64,000 bases of DNA from contig NZ_JAFNME010000015.1 of the NCBI RefSeq assembly GCF_017368815.1, positions 1 through 64,000 of the forward strand, written 5' to 3'. The position numbers and the translations under genes are program-made. Below, one piece after another: positions 12,095 to 47,700 of the stretch. Numbering within the stretch: the first letter of the stretch is position 1; the number at the start of each line of letters is the position of its first letter. Below the pieces are notes generated by a model. It was not told where the DNA came from. It saw only the letters and a program-made list of their open reading frames with translations, and ran no database searches. Source of the DNA: Comamonas denitrificans (GTDB taxonomy: Bacteria; Pseudomonadota; Gammaproteobacteria; Burkholderiales; Burkholderiaceae_C).

Positions 12095-12170
12095 AGCTTT
12101 CTCCGCTGGTTAAATAACAATTTCACCGTTTTTTAACCATGAAATCCTTTATTAACAAGCGGAAAAAGCT
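12095..12170. repeat. 76-nt palindromic repeat, intergenic copy between nadM-Nudix and metK
   Basis: Left arm AGCTTTCTCCGCT (12095-12107), a 50-nt AT-rich spacer, and right arm AGCGGAAAAAGCT (12158-12170) pair at 12 of 13 positions. Length and layout (13-50-13) are identical to the copies at 15285, 29981, 33272 and 41896, and the spacer is visibly related to that at 41896 (shared TAAATAA, TGAAAT and CTTT blocks). An inner stem GGTTAAA/TTTAACC (12108-12114 and 12132-12138) is also present. Confidence 0.85.
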
Positions 12171-14413: not shown

Positions 14414-15285
14414 ACACCAGCCGCCTGGGCCTGGCCCTGATGCACCTGTTGGCCAAACTGCCGCTGCCCGTGCTGCGCGGCATCGGCTGGGGGGTTGGCC
14501 GCCTGCTGTTTATTCTGGCCGCCCCCCGGCGCAAGATTGCGCTGCGCAATCTGGAGCTGTGCTTTCCCGAGGTGCCCGCTGCCCAGCGCCGCGCCTGGGC
14601 CAAAGAAACATTTGTGGTGTTTTGCCAAACCTTTATCGACCGCAGCTGGCTGTGGCTTGGCAGCGAAGCCCTGGTGCGCAGCCGCGTGCAACTGACCGGT
14701 GCCCTGCACGAGCTGGAGGGCGACACCGCCACCATCGTCTTTGCGCCGCACTTTTACAGCATGGACGCAGGCGGCCTGGCGCTGCCGCTGAACACGCCGC
14801 GCGAGTTCACCTCCATCTTCGCCACCAACCCCGATCCCGTGCTCGATGCCTGGTTCATGGCCGGTCGCCAGCGCTTTGGCAAGGTGCGCATGCTCAACCG
14901 CGCCGATGGTGTCAAACCCATCATCCAATGCCTGCGCAAAGGCGGCTTGCTGTACCTGCTGCCGGACATGGACTACGGCCCCAGCGATTCGGTTTTTGTG
15001 CCCTTTTTTGCCGTGCCCGATGCGGCCACCATCCCCTCGCTGTCGCGCTTTGCCCGCCTGGGCAAAGCCAAGGTCGTCGCCCTGTACAGCCGCATGACCC
15101 CCCAGGGCTATGTGGCCGAACTGACCCCCGCATGGGACAACTTCCCCACCGACGACCATGTGGCCGACACCGCCCGCATGAACCGCGAGCTGCAAGCCGC
15201 CATTCGCACCATGCCCGCGCAGTACTACTGGGTACACAAGCGCTTTAAAACCCGCCCTGCGGGGCAGGATTCTTTGTACAAGTGA
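14410..15285 (+). CDS. LpxL/HtrB-family acyltransferase 2
   Basis: Second tandem late acyltransferase, 291 residues. The start at 14410 (MNTSRLGLALMHLLAKLPLP) overlaps the stop of the first acyltransferase in ATGA; the frame is open further upstream but that stretch lies within the preceding gene. The H-x4-D motif is HFYSMD within FAPHFYSMDAGGLAL, and LLPDMDYGPSDSVFVPFF aligns with the GLLPDQ region of its neighbour. The C-terminus has the common YYWVHKRFKTRP ending. The TGA stop (15283-15285) touches the first base of a 76-nt palindromic repeat. Function: addition of a secondary acyl chain to lipid A; chain and position unknown. Confidence 0.88.
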   Translation: MNTSRLGLALMHLLAKLPLPVLRGIGWGVGRLLFILAAPRRKIALRNLELCFPEVPAAQRRAWAKETFVVFCQTFIDRSWLWLGSEALVRSRVQLTGALHELEGDTATIVFAPHFYSMDAGGLALPLNTPREFTSIFATNPDPVLDAWFMAGRQRFGKVRMLNRADGVKPIIQCLRKGGLLYLLPDMDYGPSDSVFVPFFAVPDAATIPSLSRFARLGKAKVVALYSRMTPQGYVAELTPAWDNFPTDDHVADTARMNRELQAAIRTMPAQYYWVHKRFKTRPAGQDSLYK

Positions 15286-15360
15286 GCTGTTAGCGCTTTG
15301 ATTTATTGGTTTTTAGATTAAAAACAGCTTAAAAATCACTATCTATCAGCGCAAACAGCT
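15285..15360. repeat. 76-nt palindromic repeat between the convergent acyltransferase and engB genes
   Basis: Left arm AGCTGTTAGCGCT (15285-15297), 50-nt spacer, right arm AGCGCAAACAGCT (15348-15360), pairing at 12 of 13 positions. The element exactly fills the intergenic space: its left edge coincides with the last base of the TGA of the acyltransferase and its right edge overlaps the engB stop (complement of 15359-15361). Its spacer shares TTTATTG, TTTT and AGATT blocks with the in-gene copy at 29981. It may double as a bidirectional transcript end. Confidence 0.85.
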
Positions 15361-28215: not shown

Positions 28216-28836
28216 ATGAAAAAATCTGCAATCACTTACGTTCTGGCCGCTTGTGGCCTAGCCGCTGCACTGCCCCAGGCGGCGTATGCCTTGAATGCCC
28301 AGCAGGTCGTGGAGAACATTGCCGCCAATGGTCTGCTGGCTCCCTATGACCTGGAAAAGACCGGCCATTATTGGCAAGCGCAAGCCACGACCCCGGATGG
28401 CAAAAAAGCATACGTGGTGGTGAACGATGTCGATGGTCAGTTCACCGCCGTGAGCAAGTCCGATCTGGGCACCCGCTACCCGGGTGCGGCGCAGGTGATG
28501 GCGCATCTGCGGGCTCTGGGCTATGCCCAAATCCAAGAAGTGGAGTTTGACGATGGCTTCTGGCACGTCGAGGTGCGTCCCAACCGTCAGGCCTACAAGC
28601 AAGAGTTGCTGCTGCATCCCGTGACTTTGGAGATCGTGCAGCCAACGCAGTCCACAACGGTGACGGCTGCGCACATCGTGGACGTGCTGCAGCGCGCAGG
28701 CTACACCCGCATTACCGATGTGTCTTTTGACGATGGGGTGTGGGAGGCCGAAGCCACCAACGCACAAAAACAGCGTGTGGATCTGAAGCTGGACCCTGAC
28801 ACGGCCACCATCATTTCCGAAAAGCTGGACGACTGA
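28216..28836 (+). CDS. PepSY domain protein, periplasmic
   Basis: Protein of 206 residues from ATG 28216, with GGAG at 28206-28209. It has a Sec signal peptide (MKKSAITYVLAACGLAAALPQAAYA) and two PepSY-type repeats ending DLKLDPDTATIISEKLDD, closely similar to the end of the divergent PepSY protein (ELKIDAVTLELLSQKLED). The internal pair VEFDDGFWHVEV and VSFDDGVWEAEA shows the domain duplication. The 134-base divergent promoter region between the two PepSY genes is the likely target of the adjacent response regulator. Confidence 0.75.
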   Translation: MKKSAITYVLAACGLAAALPQAAYALNAQQVVENIAANGLLAPYDLEKTGHYWQAQATTPDGKKAYVVVNDVDGQFTAVSKSDLGTRYPGAAQVMAHLRALGYAQIQEVEFDDGFWHVEVRPNRQAYKQELLLHPVTLEIVQPTQSTTVTAAHIVDVLQRAGYTRITDVSFDDGVWEAEATNAQKQRVDLKLDPDTATIISEKLDD

Positions 28837-28863: not shown

Positions 28864-28886
28864 AAAGGGGGGTGCCCCCCTTTTTT
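28864..28886 (+). terminator. Rho-independent terminator between the PepSY gene and uvrA
   Basis: AAAGGGGGG (28864-28872) pairs with CCCCCCTTT (28875-28883), followed by more T to 28886. It sits between convergent genes. Confidence 0.8.
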
Positions 28887-28891
28887 GCTTT

Positions 28892-31800
28892 TCAGCGCCC
28901 CAGCACGCCCTGCAGCGCCACGCCCGTATGCGTGCCCGCCTGAACCAAATCCTCGGGCGTGCCCTGGGCGACGATGCGGCCGCCGCCAGCGCCGCCTTCG
29001 GGGCCGAGGTCGAGCACCCAGTCGGCCTCGGCAATCACGTCCAGGTCGTGTTCGATGACGATGACGCTGTGCCCGGCATCGACCAAGCGGTGCAGCACGC
29101 GGATGAGTTTGTCCACGTCAGCCATGTGCAGGCCCACGGTGGGCTCGTCCAGCACGTACAGGGTGTGCGGGGCTTTCTGGCCGCGCCGGCCAATGTCGTC
29201 GCGCACCTTGGTCAGTTCGGTGACCAACTTGATGCGCTGCGCTTCGCCGCCCGAGAGCGTGGGGCTGGGCTGGCCCAGCGTGAGGTAGCCCAGCCCAACG
29301 TCTTGCAACAGTTGCAGCGGGTGGGCGATGGCGGGCATGGCGGCAAAAAACTCCACGGCCTCGGCCACTTCCATTTGCAGCACCTGGCCAATGTTTTTAC
29401 CGCGCCACGTCACCGCCAAGGTTTCGGGGTTGAAGCGGGCACCGTGGCAGGCATCGCAGGGCAGTTTCACATCGGGCAGAAAGCTCATGGCGATGGTGCG
29501 CAGGCCCTGGCCTTCGCACGCCGGGCAGCGGCCCGCGCCGGTGTTGAAGGAAAAGCGCCCGGCGGCGTAGCCGCGCGCCTGCGCTTCGAGGGTGCCGGCA
29601 AACAGTTTGCGGATGGTGTCCCAAAAGCCGATGTAGGTGGCCGGGCAGCTGCGCGGGGTTTTGCCGATGGGGGTTTGATCCACCTCCAGCACGCGGTCGA
29701 TGCTTTCAAAGCCGCTCAAGCCCGTGCAGCCCACCAGCGCCGGGGCCTGGCCCGCATCCATGGCATCGCGCCCGGCCTTGGTTTGGCGCTGGCCAACCCA
29801 GGCGGCCACGTTGGTCAAGAGCACATCCCGCGCCAGGGTGGATTTGCCCGAGCCACTCACGCCGGTGATTGCCACCAGCCGCTGCAGCGGCACGCGGGCG
29901 GTGACGGTTTGCAGGTTGTGCAGCTGCGCATCATGCACGGTAAGCCAGCGCAGTACTGCGGGGGCTGCTTCTGTTTCAGGAGCTGTTTGCGCTGATTTTT
30001 TATTGTTTTCAGATTGTTTTGATGCTGAAACCTTTTTATTTCCAGCGGTAGAAGCTTTGTTTTCAGGATCACCCACACTGCGCCGGGCCTGCAGCGGGTG
30101 GCGCATGGCGTGCAGCAGGTAGCGGCCGGTTTGCGAATCGGCGGCGCTTTCAATATCGGCCACGCTGCCCTGGGCAATAAGCTGGCCGCCGCGCCGCCCG
30201 GCGCTGGGGCCAATGTCGATGATGTGCTCGGCACGGCGGATGGTGTCCTCGTCGTGCTCCACCACCACCAGGGTGTTGCCTTTGGTGCTGAGCTTGTGCA
30301 AAGCGCCCAGCAGGATGCGGTTGTCGCGCGCGTGCAGGCCGATGGTCGGTTCATCCAGCACATAGCACACGCCCTGCAAATTGCTGCCCAGCTGCGCGGC
30401 CAGGCGAATGCGCTGGGCTTCGCCGCCAGAGAGCGTCGGAGCGCCCCGGTCGAGGGTGAGGTAGCCCAAGCCCACCTCCTGCAAAAACTCCAGACGGCTG
30501 GCGATTTCGGGCAGCAGGTCGCGGGCGATGTCGCTTTCGCGTTGCGTCAAGCGCCCGGCCTGCGCCAAGTGCGCGGCCCACTGGCGCAGGTCGTCCACAC
30601 TCAAATGGGCCAGATCGGTGATGCGCTGCCCGGCAAAACGCACGGCGCGGGCGGTGGCGTTCAGGCGCGTGCCGTGGCAGCTGGGGCAGGCCACTTCGGC
30701 CAGGTCTTCCACCTCTTGGCTGGCAAAGCCGATTTCGCGGCCCCGGTTGTCTTCGGCCAGTTGGCTGTCGTCGTACACCTTGCGCTGGTCTTTGTTGAGC
30801 TGCACGCCCGTGCCCACGCAGTCCGGGCACCAGCCGTGCTTGCTGTTGTAGCTGAACAGGCGCGGGTCCAGCTCGGCATAGCTGGTGGCGCACACCGGGC
30901 AGGCGCGTTGGGTGGAGAAGGCTTGCACGCTGCCCATGCCACTGCCGTCGCCACCCGCCCCCAGCGCGGCGGCCAGATCGTCGATGCCGTGCAGCACCTG
31001 CACCACGCCCTTGCCCAGCTCCAGCGCCTGGGCCAGGTGCTGGCGCAGCGTGGCCTCGTCAGCGGCACTGACCAAGACGCTGGCCACGGGCAGCTCAATG
31101 CTGTGCTCTTTAAACCGATCCAGCCGGGGGAATCCGGTGGTGGGCAGAAACGCCCCATCCACGCGCAAATGCGTGTAGCCGCGCGGGCGGGCCCAGTCGG
31201 CCAGTTCGGTGTAAACGCCCTTGCGGTGGCTGACCAGCGGGGCCAGCAGGCCAATCACCTGGCCGCTGAACTGGGTGATGAGCTGCGCGGCAATGCTGTC
31301 CAGGCTTTGCGGTTGCACCGGCGCATCGTCATGCACGCAATGCTGGGTGCCCAGCTTGACGTAGAGCAGGCGCAGAAAGTGCCAGACCTCGGTGGTGGTG
31401 CCCACGGTGGATTTGCGCCCTCCGCGCGACAGGCGCTGCTCAATGGCCACGGTGGGCGGGATGCCATACACGGCATCCACCTCGGGCCGCCCGGCGGGCT
31501 GGACGATGCTGCGGGCGTAGGCGTTGAGCGACTCTAGGTAACGGCGCTGGCCTTCGTTGAACACAATGTCAAACGCCAGGGTGGATTTGCCCGAGCCGCT
31601 CACGCCGGTAATCACGTTGAACTTGCCGTGCGGAATCTGCACGCTGAGGTTTTTCAGGTTGTGCTCTTTGGCGTTAATCACTTCGATAGCACGGGGCGCA
31701 ACAGGGGCGTGCTTTTTTGCCGATTTGGTTTGAAATTTTGCCCCCGCCTCGGCCACGCTGTGCCCGTCCAGGCCCAGGGCCTGCTCATAGTCGCGCAGCG

Positions 31801-34800
31801 CCTGCGCGGTGTGCGAGCCGGTCATTTGCCGCAGCTCTTCGGGCGTGCCCTGGGCGACGATGTGGCCGCCGCCATCGCCGCCTTCCGGCCCCAGGTCAAT
31901 CAGCCAATCGCTGGCGCGGATCACATCCAGGTTGTGCTCAATGACGATCAGGCTGTGCCCGGCCTCCAGCAGCTTCCTCAGCGCCCGCATCAGCTTGGCG
32001 ATGTCTTCAAAGTGCAGGCCGGTGGTCGGCTCGTCAAACAAAAACAGCGTGCCTTTGCGCGCCAGGCTTTGGCGCGATTTGGCCTGGGTTTTGGCCGCTT
32101 CGGCCAGAAAACCGGCCAGTTTGAGGCGCTGCGCCTCGCCGCCGGACAGGGTGGGCACGCTTTGGCCCAGTTGCACATAGTCCAGCCCCACATCCACGAT
32201 GGGCTGCAGGGCGCGAATCACTTCGGCATCTTGGGCGAACAGCTGCGCGGCCTCGGCTACGGTCAGCGCCAGCACGTCGGCCACATTCAGCAGCCGCCCG
32301 CCGCGCTCCAGGCGCACCTCCAGCACCTCGGGGCGGTAGCGCTGGCCGTTGCAATCGGGGCAGCGCAGGTACACGTCCGACAAGAACTGCATCTCCACAT
32401 GCTCAAAGCCCGAGCCGCCGCAGGTCGGGCAGCGCCCATCGCCGGTGTTAAAGCTGAACTTGCCCGCCGTGTAGCCGCGCTGCTGCGACAGCGGGGCGCA
32501 GGCGAACAGCTCGCGCAGGCTGTCCCAGGCGCCGACGTAGCTCACGGGGTTGGAGCGCGCGGTTTTGCCAATGGGCGATTGATCCACCCACAGCACATCG
32601 GCCAGTTGCTCGGCGCCCAGCAGGCGGGTAAAGGCCCCGGCGCTTTCCGTGGGCTTGCCAAAGTGGCGCAGCAGCGCGGGCACCAGCACATCTTGAATCA
32701 GGCTGGATTTGCCGGAGCCAGAAACGCCCGTCACCGTCACCAGCCGCTGCAGGGGAAAGGCCACGTCAATGCCCTGCAGGTTGTGGGCGCTGGCCCCTTC
32801 CAAAATCAATTTGGGCGTGTTGGCCTGCACCGGGCGCTTAAAGCCAAAGCCCACCTGCTTGCGCCCGCCCAGGTAGGCCCCGGTCAAAGTATCGGCCTGG
32901 CGCAGTTGCGCGGGTGGGCCATCAAACACAATCTGCCCGCCGCGCACGCCGGGGCCGGGGCCCATGTCGATGATGCGGTCAGCCGCCAGCATCACGGCCG
33001 GGTCGTGCTCCACCACCACCAGGGTGTTGCCGGCGTTTTTTAGGCGCTGCATGGCCAAGTTGATACGCTGCATATCGCGCGGGTGCAGGCCAATGCTGGG
33101 CTCGTCCAGCACAAACAAGGTGTTCACCAAGCTGGTGCCCAGCGCGGTGGTCAGGTTGATGCGCTGCACCTCGCCGCCCGAAAGCGTGCGGCTTTGCCGA
33201 TCGAGTGTTAGGTAGCCAATGCCCACATCGCACAGGTAGCGCAAGCGGGTTTCGATCTCTTCCAAAATCAAAGCTTGTGCCGCTTGTTCTGCTTGGTTTT
33301 CAGCAGGTTTAGTTGCTGGAATGTTTTCTGGTTCAGCGGGAACAGCTTCTTTTTTAAGAGCTTGAAAAAATGTTTGCAGCCGCACCAAGGGCAGCTGCAT
33401 CACATCGTGCAGGCACAGGCCAGGCAGGGCTTCCAGCTGTGCGCGGCTCCAGGCCACACCGTGGGGCATGAAGCGCTGCGCGGGCGGTAGCACCGCATCG
33501 GCCTGCGCCTTGCTGCCCACGCGCCACAGCAGGCTTTCCAGCCCCAGGCGCGCGCCGCCGCAGCATGGGCAGGGCGTGTAGCTGCGGTATTTGGAGAGCA
33601 GCACGCGAATGTGCATCTTGTAGAACTTGCTCTCCAAATACGCAAAAAAGCGGCGGATGCCGTACCACGTCTGCTCCCACTTGCCGTTCCAGCGCGGCGA
33701 GCCGTCCAGCACCCAATCGCGCTGCGCGGGCGTGAGCTTGCCCCAGGCAATGTCGCGCGGAATGCCCTCGGCCTCGGCGTGGCGCAGCAAGTCGTCTTGG
33801 ATTTCTTTCCACGCTGGGGTTTGGATGGCCTTGATGGCGCCGGTGCGCAGCGTGAGTTTGTCGTTGGGCACGACCAAATTCCAATCCACCCCAATCACCC
33901 GGCCAAAGCCCCGGCATTCCGGGCAGGCACCGGCAGCGGAGTTGAAGGAGAACAACGCCGGCAGCGGCGCTTGGTAGCTGATGGCGCTCTCGGGGCAATG
34001 CAGGCCCAGGGCAAATTTCCAGATTTCGGGTTCCGGGGCATCAGTCAGCGCATACACCTGCATCAGCCCCTGGCCGCGCAGCAGCGCCAGCTCAATCGCT
34101 TCCATGGCGCGGGCGCGTTCGACGTTGCCCATGCGAAAGCGGTCGGCCACCACGTCCAGCACTTTCACGCTGGTGGGTTTGGCGGCTTTTTTGCCTTTTT
34201 CGGGCGCAGGGGCGGGTTTTTCCAGCGTGCGATCGGCCTGAATCTTGGTAAAGCCGCTGGCCAGCAGCCACTGCTGCACCTCGTCGGCGCTGGTGCTGGC
34301 GGGCAGCTCCACGGCAAAGGTGACGACCAAGCGCGGGTCGCCCGCCGCCTGGGCGCGTGCTTGCAGTTGCTGGTAGATGCTCTCGGCCGTGTCGTGCTGC
34401 ACCGGCTGCGCGGTCTGGCGGTCGAACAAGGCCCCCGCACGGGCGAACAACAGCTTCAGGTGATCGTTCAGCTCCGTCATCGTGCCCACGGTGGAGCGGG
34501 AATTGCGCACCGGGTTGGTCTGGTCGATGGCAATCGCTGGCGGCACGCCTTCGACCTTATCGACGGCGGGTTTGTCCATGCGATCAAGAAACTGGCGCGC
34601 GTAGGCGCTGAAGGTTTCGACATAGCGGCGCTGCCCCTCGGCATACAGCGTATCGAACACCAGGCTGGATTTGCCCGAGCCACTGGGGCCAGTGACCACG
34701 GTCAGCTCCCCGGTGCGGATGTCCACATCCAGATTCTTCAAATTGTGCTGGCGCGCGCCGTGGATGCGGATAAGACCGTGGGGGGAATCAGAGGACGAAG

Positions 34801-34810
34801 ATGACGACAT
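28892..34810 (-). CDS. uvrA: Double-length UvrA (UvrA2-type, tandem excinuclease ABC subunit A)
   Basis: DNA-damage recognition ATPase of nucleotide excision repair, but 1,972 residues instead of about 940. It is two UvrA units in tandem, a covalent dimer. There are four Walker A motifs (GPSGSGKSS near residue 41, GVSGSGKS near 697, 1072 and 1654) and four ABC signatures (TLSGGE near 543, 888, 1460 and 1850). CxxC zinc-ribbon pairs are seen in both halves (CPECRGFG, CPTCGGSGF, CPDCVGTG, CPACEGQG). I chose ATG 34810 over a TTG four codons upstream. Residues about 488-513 and 1585-1610 are encoded by 76-nt palindromic repeats. Double-length proteins of this kind are annotated uvrA2 in Ralstonia. 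A normal uvrA may exist elsewhere. It is transcribed alone. Confidence 0.92.
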   Translation of the reverse strand: MSSSSSSDSPHGLIRIHGARQHNLKNLDVDIRTGELTVVTGPSGSGKSSLVFDTLYAEGQRRYVETFSAYARQFLDRMDKPAVDKVEGVPPAIAIDQTNPVRNSRSTVGTMTELNDHLKLLFARAGALFDRQTAQPVQHDTAESIYQQLQARAQAAGDPRLVVTFAVELPASTSADEVQQWLLASGFTKIQADRTLEKPAPAPEKGKKAAKPTSVKVLDVVADRFRMGNVERARAMEAIELALLRGQGLMQVYALTDAPEPEIWKFALGLHCPESAISYQAPLPALFSFNSAAGACPECRGFGRVIGVDWNLVVPNDKLTLRTGAIKAIQTPAWKEIQDDLLRHAEAEGIPRDIAWGKLTPAQRDWVLDGSPRWNGKWEQTWYGIRRFFAYLESKFYKMHIRVLLSKYRSYTPCPCCGGARLGLESLLWRVGSKAQADAVLPPAQRFMPHGVAWSRAQLEALPGLCLHDVMQLPLVRLQTFFQALKKEAVPAEPENIPATKPAENQAEQAAQALILEEIETRLRYLCDVGIGYLTLDRQSRTLSGGEVQRINLTTALGTSLVNTLFVLDEPSIGLHPRDMQRINLAMQRLKNAGNTLVVVEHDPAVMLAADRIIDMGPGPGVRGGQIVFDGPPAQLRQADTLTGAYLGGRKQVGFGFKRPVQANTPKLILEGASAHNLQGIDVAFPLQRLVTVTGVSGSGKSSLIQDVLVPALLRHFGKPTESAGAFTRLLGAEQLADVLWVDQSPIGKTARSNPVSYVGAWDSLRELFACAPLSQQRGYTAGKFSFNTGDGRCPTCGGSGFEHVEMQFLSDVYLRCPDCNGQRYRPEVLEVRLERGGRLLNVADVLALTVAEAAQLFAQDAEVIRALQPIVDVGLDYVQLGQSVPTLSGGEAQRLKLAGFLAEAAKTQAKSRQSLARKGTLFLFDEPTTGLHFEDIAKLMRALRKLLEAGHSLIVIEHNLDVIRASDWLIDLGPEGGDGGGHIVAQGTPEELRQMTGSHTAQALRDYEQALGLDGHSVAEAGAKFQTKSAKKHAPVAPRAIEVINAKEHNLKNLSVQIPHGKFNVITGVSGSGKSTLAFDIVFNEGQRRYLESLNAYARSIVQPAGRPEVDAVYGIPPTVAIEQRLSRGGRKSTVGTTTEVWHFLRLLYVKLGTQHCVHDDAPVQPQSLDSIAAQLITQFSGQVIGLLAPLVSHRKGVYTELADWARPRGYTHLRVDGAFLPTTGFPRLDRFKEHSIELPVASVLVSAADEATLRQHLAQALELGKGVVQVLHGIDDLAAALGAGGDGSGMGSVQAFSTQRACPVCATSYAELDPRLFSYNSKHGWCPDCVGTGVQLNKDQRKVYDDSQLAEDNRGREIGFASQEVEDLAEVACPSCHGTRLNATARAVRFAGQRITDLAHLSVDDLRQWAAHLAQAGRLTQRESDIARDLLPEIASRLEFLQEVGLGYLTLDRGAPTLSGGEAQRIRLAAQLGSNLQGVCYVLDEPTIGLHARDNRILLGALHKLSTKGNTLVVVEHDEDTIRRAEHIIDIGPSAGRRGGQLIAQGSVADIESAADSQTGRYLLHAMRHPLQARRSVGDPENKASTAGNKKVSASKQSENNKKSAQTAPETEAAPAVLRWLTVHDAQLHNLQTVTARVPLQRLVAITGVSGSGKSTLARDVLLTNVAAWVGQRQTKAGRDAMDAGQAPALVGCTGLSGFESIDRVLEVDQTPIGKTPRSCPATYIGFWDTIRKLFAGTLEAQARGYAAGRFSFNTGAGRCPACEGQGLRTIAMSFLPDVKLPCDACHGARFNPETLAVTWRGKNIGQVLQMEVAEAVEFFAAMPAIAHPLQLLQDVGLGYLTLGQPSPTLSGGEAQRIKLVTELTKVRDDIGRRGQKAPHTLYVLDEPTVGLHMADVDKLIRVLHRLVDAGHSVIVIEHDLDVIAEADWVLDLGPEGGAGGGRIVAQGTPEDLVQAGTHTGVALQGVLGR
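29981..30056. repeat. 76-nt palindromic repeat inside uvrA, copy 1 (second half)
   Basis: Arms AGCTGTTTGCGCT (29981-29993) and AGCGGTAGAAGCT (30044-30056) flank exactly 50 nt. The spacer aligns with that of the intergenic copy at 15285 (shared TTTATTG, TTTT and AGATT in order). Read on the uvrA strand it encodes a Lys/Ser/Asn-rich linker, A-S-T-A-G-N-K-K-V-S-A-S-K and onward to S-A-Q-T-A, between the two nucleotide-binding domains of the second UvrA unit. Confidence 0.8.
33272..33347. repeat. 76-nt palindromic repeat inside uvrA, copy 2 (first half)
   Basis: Arms AGCTTGTGCCGCT (33272-33284) and AGCGGGAACAGCT (33335-33347) pair at 10 of 13 positions around exactly 50 nt. On the uvrA strand it encodes A-V-P-A-E-P-E-N-I-P-A-T and onward to A-A-Q-A, a linker just before the first signature domain. 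Its reading frame relative to the arms is the same as in copy 1. Confidence 0.78.
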
Positions 34811-34875
34811 GGCAGGGGGCAAAAATCAGGGGGCTTTATTGTAGGAAGCCGCCCCTGGCCTTGCGCTGCACCCGC

Positions 34876-41895: not shown

Positions 41896-41971
41896 AGCTG
41901 TTTCCGCTTTTAAATAAACAGTTTTACTGTGTTTTCACTTTGAAATGCTTTGTTTTCAAGCGGAAACAGCT
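41896..41971. repeat. 76-nt palindromic repeat between thiolase and acyl-CoA dehydrogenase genes
   Basis: Arms AGCTGTTTCCGCT (41896-41908) and AGCGGAAACAGCT (41959-41971) are perfectly complementary (13 of 13, extending to 14) around a 50-nt AT-rich spacer. The best-preserved copy in the window. An inner mini-hairpin ACAG/CTGT is present in the spacer. The spacer is clearly homologous to that at 12095. Confidence 0.9.
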
Positions 41972-46374: not shown

Positions 46375-47700
46375 ATGGTCGAAAAATCCCCCTCTACTCT
46401 TGCCCGCGAAGCGCTTAGGCTGTTGTTTTCACGGGAGCAACCACCTACTCCCGAAAACTACCAAGCGGCTTACTACGAAGCCGCTGGGACGATTGATGCC
46501 ATCGTGGTCCCGCCCGGCCTGGCCCACCAATTGGCACGCTTGTGTGAGTTTGCACAGCCTGCCTTTGCACACAGCGATGCGCGCTTGCGCGAAATGTCCG
46601 AGCAGCTGGTGCATTTTTTGCGCCAACCCCAGCCCGAGCTGAGCACCGCACTCTTGCTGCTGCAAAACTTTAGCCACCGCCTGTCGTTTGCGGTGCCCGA
46701 CCAGGTGCAGCTGCACGAGGGTTTGCTGCGCTTGCTGGGGCTGATCCTGCAAAACATGGCCGTGCTGTGTTTGGACGACCAGTGGCTGGAGGGGCAGTTG
46801 AGCGCGCTGCAAACAGCCACCGAGCCACCGCTGACGCTGCCACGCCTGCAAGAGATGGAGCAGCGCCTGCAAGAGGTGATCTTCAAGCAAACCGAGGCCA
46901 AAGAGCGCCTGGTGCAAGCGCAAAACCAAGTGCGTGATTTGCTCGCTACGTTTATTGACCGTTTGGCCGACATAGGGGACACCAACAGCAGCTATCACGA
47001 CCATCTGGAGCAGTGCGCCGCCAAGCTCTCCAAAGTCTCGCAGCTGCACGAAATCACCCCGCTGCTCGAAGATGTCATCGGTGCCACCCGCGCCATGGCC
47101 GATCGCTGCGATCTGGCCCGCCATGAGCTGCACACCTTGCGCATGCAAAGCGAACAAGGGATGCAGGAAATCAACCGCCTGCGCGATGCCCTGGTGGAGA
47201 CCTCGGCCCAAGCCCGCACCGATGCCCAAACCGGGGCACTCAACCGCCGGGGCATGGACGAGGCACTGGAGCAAGAAGTCCAAGCCGCGCAAAAGACCGG
47301 TGCCCCCTTGTGCGTTGCCTTGTTGGATTTGGATGACTTTAAAAACCTCAACGACCGCTTGGGCCACGATGCCGGCGACAAAGCCCTGGAGCATCTGGTC
47401 CATGTGGCCAAAAAAGTCATGCGCACCCAAGACCAGCTGGCCCGCTATGGCGGAGAAGAATTCGTTTTCCTCCTGCCCGGCACGACCGCCACCCAGGCCG
47501 TTGAAATCATGAAGCGCCTACAGCGCACGCTCACTGCGCAGTACTTTTTGCAAGACAACGAACGGGTGCTGATCACCTTCAGCGCTGGCGTGGCGCAGCT
47601 GCAAGCCAACGAGGACTACCAACACGCATTAATCAGAGCTGACAAGGCTGTTTATATGGCGAAAAAAGCAGGAAAGAACCGCGTTTTCTTTGCTGAATAA
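46375..47700 (+). CDS. Diguanylate cyclase (GGDEF domain)
   Basis: Enzyme of 441 residues that makes cyclic di-GMP. The N-terminal 270 residues are alpha-helical with a likely coiled coil (QEMEQRLQEVIFKQTEAKERLVQAQNQV) and no membrane segment; this domain type is unnamed. The GGDEF domain starts at DAQTGALNRRGM and has the active-site GGEEF (near residue 360), DLDDFKNLNDRLGHDAGD, and an inhibitory I-site RTQD five residues before GGEEF. It should therefore be active and product-inhibited. The stop TAA at 47698-47700 touches a palindrome arm. Confidence 0.92.
   Translation: MVEKSPSTLAREALRLLFSREQPPTPENYQAAYYEAAGTIDAIVVPPGLAHQLARLCEFAQPAFAHSDARLREMSEQLVHFLRQPQPELSTALLLLQNFSHRLSFAVPDQVQLHEGLLRLLGLILQNMAVLCLDDQWLEGQLSALQTATEPPLTLPRLQEMEQRLQEVIFKQTEAKERLVQAQNQVRDLLATFIDRLADIGDTNSSYHDHLEQCAAKLSKVSQLHEITPLLEDVIGATRAMADRCDLARHELHTLRMQSEQGMQEINRLRDALVETSAQARTDAQTGALNRRGMDEALEQEVQAAQKTGAPLCVALLDLDDFKNLNDRLGHDAGDKALEHLVHVAKKVMRTQDQLARYGGEEFVFLLPGTTATQAVEIMKRLQRTLTAQYFLQDNERVLITFSAGVAQLQANEDYQHALIRADKAVYMAKKAGKNRVFFAE

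Follow-up and report, generated by a model that had tools for sequence, protein, structure and literature searches.

In-frame copies of a dispersed 76-nt palindromic repeat family in uvrA and other protein genes of Comamonas

INTRODUCTION

How do two palindromic repeats come to lie in one reading frame inside a gene for a DNA repair protein? The question is raised by a 64,000-nt stretch of the Comamonas denitrificans genome (contig NZ_JAFNME010000015.1; 'the window' below means this whole stretch), in which a double-length uvrA gene hosts two 76-nt segments, here called site 1 and site 2 (Table 1). An initial annotation had described both as palindromes encoding linkers in the same phase and had named the palindromic elements of Rickettsia as the precedent. 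According to sections of an earlier report (PMC3733652), repetitive extragenic palindromes (REPs) occur inside uvrA in other bacteria, twice in some species, as well as in genes of UvrD/REP helicases and RNA helicases, and repair genes were already suggested there to be unlikely as fortuitous REP targets. Here we describe a finding that is broader than first noted: a Comamonas family of hairpin repeats that lies mainly 3' of genes and is also found in frame in several proteins.

RESULTS

Both uvrA segments belong to a dispersed repeat family

The host open reading frame (ORF) is recognized by NCBIfam UvrA equivalogs with scores of 1884–1905 bits. Its two repeats lie where the initial annotation had placed them, with a 13-50-13 layout bounded by the arms AGCTGTTTGCGCT..AGCGGTAGAAGCT and AGCTTGTGCCGCT..AGCGGGAACAGCT, and translation of the minus strand bore out the A-x-x-A entries, the SAQTA and AAQA ends and the common frame in hydrophilic linkers. 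Both copies begin at codon position 3, a phase written here as A-GCT. They are weaker palindromes (arm complementarity 9/13 and 10/13) than the intergenic copy at 41896 (13/13). Site 1 is located upstream of the LSGGE signature in the first UvrA unit and site 2 in the second unit, within the linker that joins its two nucleotide-binding domains; the tract adjoining site 1 resembles the A/T-tract flanks of intergenic copies. That canonical UvrA has only short loops at these places holds for site 2, where 42 residues face 4 between the aligned blocks of the solved structures 3UX8/2R6F, but less exactly for site 1, where 72 unaligned residues compare with 24 in chain 2R6F and one flanking block is weak (13.9 bits).

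Table 1. Features of the window and copies of the 76-nt element inside recognizable genes
Feature	Position	Strand	Basis
uvrA, double-length excinuclease subunit A (1976 aa), hosts both copies	28892..34822	-	ORF; NCBIfam UvrA equivalogs; Pfam UvrA_inter, UvrA_DNA-bind
Site 2, 76-nt element, frame A-GCT, encodes ASTAGNKKVSASKQSENNKKSAQTA	29981..30056	-	arm pattern, translation, alignments
Site 1, 76-nt element, frame A-GCT, encodes AVPAEPENIPATKPAENQAEQAAQA	33272..33347	-	arm pattern, translation, alignments
T-tract on + strand (A-tract on gene strand, codes KK) adjoining site 1	33348..33357	-	sequence
Family copy between two minus-strand genes	12095..12170		arm pattern; RNA fold z -8.5 on minus strand
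Family copy between convergent genes	15285..15360		arm pattern; RNA fold z -2.5
Family copy 6 bp after plus-strand gene, arms 13/13 complementary	41896..41971		arm pattern; RNA fold z -6.1
In-gene copies (A-GCT): uvrA (two), uvrD, era, murD			Pfam/NCBIfam
In-gene copy (A-GCT): DUF2169/pentapeptide protein			Pfam
In-gene copy (A-GCT): SPOR-domain protein			Pfam
In-gene copy (A-GCT): topB with SWIB domain			
In-gene copy (A-GCT): DUF3418 helicase, hrpA-like			
In-gene copy (A-GCT): RNase E-like gene, ends at contig edge			below NCBIfam cut-off

The arm pattern AGCTnnnnnCGCT-50-AGCGnnnnnAGCT was found at 223 places of the 3.0-Mb genome at ≤2 mismatches and at 177 places at ≤1 mismatch, compared with 4 and 0 for the reversed pattern; such counts are far above chance. 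It could still be argued that ordinary protein disorder accounts for the linkers and that their resemblance to a palindrome is secondary, since the UvrA family shows great variation in linker length and sequence at both sites. However, all 16 fixed arm positions match at both uvrA sites with the exact 76-nt spacing, and the pattern is found again in closely related genomes and, in the same frame, in further genes of the genome itself, where reversed controls give 0–4; we find this explanation hardly credible. The same linkers written in unrelated codons in distant genera, the observation that the initial annotation had named as speaking for a secondary resemblance, were not seen in 29 other-genus loci, where the linkers differ. 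Some other-genus UvrA loci carry other palindromic repeats in these differing linkers.

Both uvrA segments are thus members of a dispersed family whose imperfect palindromes have a fixed length of 76 nt. Among arm pairs in 463 kb of the genome (≤1 mismatch in all), 37 span 76 nt, 3 span 75 nt and none 77 nt, while eight other lengths in the range 40–140 are represented by one or two pairs apiece. A consensus built from 133 elements reads symmetrically and contains the conserved blocks AGCT, CGCT, TTTCA/TGAAA, AGCG and AGCT, and opposed positions pair above shuffles in the exact register only (mean excess 0.088, falling to between -0.007 and 0.019 when the register is slid by 1–3 columns). A length that stays constant despite rewritten stems points to something measuring the element. 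Besides the uvrA copies the window holds three family copies; a match at 47637 (2 mismatches, poor pairing) was left out. Rfam gave no match at gathering score in the whole window or at 15 element loci, and no description of the 76-nt family was found in a literature search limited to open-licence PubMed Central texts.

The family belongs to Comamonas and a few related genera. At ≤1 mismatch the close relatives G143, G131, G154 and G124 carry 187, 234, 186 and 203 copies (reversed controls 0, 0, 0 and 1), and the larger genome G148 carries 84 (control 0). Only four of 119 genomes from other genera of the taxonomic family hold at least 10 copies, namely G010 with 57, G072 with 45, G095 with 18 and G004 with 11 (controls 1, 1, 2 and 0); the remaining 115 show 0–6 places each, while reversed controls reach 20.

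Copies outside genes lie mostly at 3' ends

The gene context of 37 copies was taken from a crude ORF caller: 13 lie in '--' and 10 in '++' gaps, 8 between convergent genes, 1 between divergent genes and 5 inside genes. Tandem or convergent gaps therefore house 31 of the 32 copies that are not inside a gene, and a divergent gap only 1/32; for comparison, divergent gaps number 45 among the 173 intergenic gaps that reach 80 bp. A gene's 3' end is found within 60 bp of 28 of the 31 tandem or convergent copies. The mean longest flanking runs are 3.25 for A before and 3.65 for T after the element (20/23 tandem copies) and 4.38 and 4.50 for the 8 convergent copies, compared with 1.91 in the control.

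With a hairpin after stop codons, an A-run before and a T-run after it, the intergenic copies resemble bidirectional intrinsic terminators. They differ from these in their fixed length and in blocks conserved over many copies, and a terminator role is putative. The RNA fold z-scores of five intergenic copies range from -2.5 to -8.5, those of five in-gene copies from -0.5 to -3.5, with -0.5 for the era copy and -1.6 and -2.1 for the uvrA copies.

Copies in recognizable genes share one reading frame

At least 93 exact-pattern copies were catalogued, and flanks of ≥60 nt were examined for 49 exact-pattern copies. Ten copies lie in recognizable genes, all ten in the A-GCT frame (Table 1); this number is a lower bound and the gene mix is not a random sample, as some of the loci were chosen for an open frame. 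One host is the DUF3418 helicase, which we take to be HrpA. The pattern that the initial annotation had proposed to look for in other proteins of the genome does recur, for example in uvrD, topB, era and murD. For the 83 other catalogued copies, the frame A-GCT is open in 32 of 166 strand-frames, AG-CT in 38 and AGC-T in 12. The in-gene peptides are more hydrophilic than open A-GCT frames of other copies, with a mean hydropathy of -0.65 versus +0.49 for 24 such frames elsewhere (Mann-Whitney p 3.5e-5). An ORF open in A-GCT over C23:152067 has no Pfam match and was left uncounted, as were the AG-CT ORFs over C4:38273 and C12:67053.

Possible further in-gene copies of G000, with 1 mismatch each and in A-GCT, were seen at C23:141174 (MatE protein) and C34:79102 (VanZ-like membrane protein); together with C34:68346 they were kept out of the ten as less certain.

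The uvrD copy is present in all five close genomes. In some relatives without the copy, the left arm is still in frame in uvrD and era. As a separate observation, the uvrD orthologue of G154 (G154:C1:260410-260849) contains an extra insertion of ~130 residues that has no element match.

Copies are shared between relatives and diverged

For a comparison of loci we used sampled stretches of G000, G154 and G143 and searched the element at ≤3 mismatches. All 8 distinct loci with two matched flanks, among them 2 in uvrA, had the element in the relative as well, and agreement between the copies ranged from 41 to 63 of the 76 bases. These shared and highly diverged orthologous copies are difficult to reconcile with a recently active miniature transposon that would have entered uvrA with an AGCT target duplication, adding a net 72 bp or 24 codons. 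The palindromic ends, the many dispersed copies, the in-frame net length and a copy number that varies among the counted members of the genus (84–234) would fit such an element, and some turnover is possible, since comparisons with a single matched flank gave five cases without the copy, whose flank matches are 70–82% identical, and two with it. However, no empty site was seen and no Y1 transposase lay nearby (6 loci, 7 genomes). A recent mobile element is disfavoured by the orthologous copies, and we judge it very unlikely.

We also counted paired changes between relatives. The counts come from directed comparisons of related pairs from few species, and shuffle p-values do not describe independent events. 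Two-sided changes that keep a Watson-Crick pair make up 28 of 54 in intergenic copies (13.6 expected), 16 of 26 at uvrA site 1 (6.8 expected) and 18 of 38 at site 2 (7.2 expected). The excess at the uvrA sites would agree with in-gene copies being kept as nucleic-acid hairpins, with pairing under selection; the hairpin might, for instance, tune the genes as a processing site or a translation-coupled attenuator. The list of hosts (uvrA twice, uvrD, topB, the hrpA-like gene, the RNase E-like gene, era) and the unrelated REPs that, according to sections of PMC3733652, other bacteria carry in uvrA and in genes of UvrD/REP helicases would suit it as well. Against this stand the weak in-gene folds and the near-null overall pairing at the uvrA sites, the many genus members in which the copies at site 2, in era and in uvrD are lost or decayed, and the origin of the compensated changes in few, related species. 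We consider selection for a hairpin inside these genes improbable.

The two uvrA sites differ in their distribution among relatives

The uvrA alignment covered the five close genomes and 26 further members of the genus, the other 10 of the 41 genus genomes being outside it. A full copy at site 2 is found in G000, G143, G131 and G154, while uvrA of G124 is broken at site 2. Matches at ≤2 mismatches occur there in 10 of the 26 further members, and of 29 aligned loci from other genera, those of G095 (L026, 1 mismatch) and G072 carry a match read in the same phase. In a set of 80 named loci, only those of uncultured Comamonas sp. ISORED-1 and Comamonas testosteroni JL40 had a match within uvrA. 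Some relatives without the full copy retain element-like sequence in the same frame at site 2. Because such sequence, or the left arm, is kept in frame elsewhere, the copies at site 2, in era and in uvrD look old and partly decayed, and for site 2 the alignments indicate an old copy. From the sequence comparisons we read the in-gene copies as old copies in decay, although the opposite order is also possible.

At site 1 the element is present in the five close genomes only, and all 26 further members lack it. The initial annotation had expected that orthologues lacking the inserts would demonstrate insertion. The net length difference from these 26 members is 11–12 residues instead of 24, which leaves a clean insertion of 24 codons at site 1 unsupported.

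In other genera UvrA linker 1 contains an unrelated repeat

An inverted-repeat scan of 109 UvrA loci, whose patterns may miss linkers, detected inverted repeats of ≥10 bp in 9 linkers, some of which may be due to chance. Linker 1 of three Variovorax records (L241, L243, L247) and of G004 (L031) contains CCCTCTCCC-N6-GGGAGAGGG. This repeat has 31 copies in G004 and 23, 19 and 17 in the three Variovorax genomes (reversed control 0) and none in G000 and G005. The same UvrA linker therefore hosts an unrelated repeat in Variovorax and G004.

DISCUSSION

We explain these observations by a family of hairpin repeats that lies mainly 3' of genes and of which some copies became fixed in frame inside protein genes, and we put the probability of this explanation at roughly 0.7. 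For the intergenic copies the most probable role is that of bidirectional terminators or RNA hairpins at 3' ends, and selection on pairing and length would keep them. In the past, some copies would have been fixed within coding sequences, either at protein termini or in linkers between domains, where they would be read in A-GCT and translated into 25 residues. Inside genes, moving ribosomes may hold the hairpin open; in part of the genus the copies would then have decayed while the linker stayed. The UvrA linkers may be permissive sites, and in other genera they house the unrelated palindromic repeat.

Several results weigh against this explanation. Pairing in the uvrA copies is close to the null (20–28 of 38 opposed positions, compared with 24.3 for the null and 26.1 for all elements), which slightly lowers our confidence. 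One-sided changes at paired positions are frequent (43 in intergenic copies, 64 at site 1 and 46 at site 2), the pair counts are non-independent, and in the 133 elements the pairing excess is not clear at columns 14–16 and 35–37. In-gene hairpins fold weakly compared with intergenic copies (five each), and a generic terminator scan gave no entry for the copy at 41896. Several in-gene loci were chosen for an open frame; copies at C4:38273 and C12:67053 lie in AG-CT ORFs that have gene-like composition and no Pfam match, and further copies beyond the ten may lie in genes. Apart from the small net gain at site 1, the uvrD linker gains no length with the element, and an empty site of 24 codons was not found at the uvrA sites, in era or in uvrD of relatives. 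Searches for Y1_Tnp (Pfam PF01797) in seven genomes returned six loci with no element in their 1.5-kb flanks, and G131, with its 234 copies, has no PF01797 match.

Among known systems, the GTAG/CGTC REPs are the closest in placement. As sections of PMC3733652 describe them, they are high-copy palindromes found mostly just 3' of genes, in tandem or convergent gaps, with some copies inside genes, and the placement of the 76-nt family outside genes is of this kind. In contrast, REP units are given there as 20–40 bp; the 76-nt consensus carries neither end tag, as it starts and ends with AGCT and has CGCT/AGCG inside; and no counterpart was found beside the elements of the REP-associated tyrosine transposase (RAYT) that is flanked by repeats of the GTAG type. 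Terms beginning with Comamon- or Burkholderi-, as well as Acidovorax and Delftia, are absent from the main text of PMC3733652. The 76-nt family works like the GTAG/CGTC REPs, but membership is unsupported, as tag and size both fail. The precedent first named, the Rickettsia palindromic elements, is a fair one, although a closer one is provided by the REPs that sections of PMC3733652 report in frame within uvrA and genes of UvrD/REP helicases. In the parts of PMC10969869 that treat them, the Rickettsia elements are palindromic repeats inside protein genes that are unrelated to one another, with in-frame translation; our ten in-gene copies, all in A-GCT and with predicted translation, share this trait. 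At ~150 bp (PMC10969869, in part) they are set apart by description only from a 76-nt family that lies in Comamonas and mostly outside genes. The elements are also similar to miniature inverted-repeat transposable elements in being short, non-coding and dispersed with inverted ends, but the comparisons yielded neither a target duplication nor an empty site, nor was a partner transposase found, and orthologous copies occur in more than one species.

The family thus offers a traceable case of hairpin repeats turning into protein sequence in a bacterium outside Rickettsia, and its relatives show several apparent stages: full copy, decayed copy and remnant arm. What is new is that a repeat family without GTAG or CGTC tags joins the REPs already known in uvrA and uvrD, and the claim that repair-type genes are preferred targets becomes open to a proper count. 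It could further be proposed that unrelated hairpin families have repeatedly been recruited into UvrA linkers, UvrD, helicases, topoisomerase and RNase E, where hairpin or linker would alter expression or work of the enzyme. We hold this to be doubtful; if it were true, repair proteins would time and again have gained functional linkers from palindromic repeats.

Two minor features of the uvrA region lie outside the 76-nt family. One, inside uvrA at 33587-33641, is an inverted repeat whose 14-bp arms match perfectly across a 27-nt gap; it is possibly due to chance. Beyond the 3' end of uvrA, at 28864-28885 and downstream of a plus-strand ORF ending at 28836, a GC stem with a T-tail looks like an ordinary terminator.

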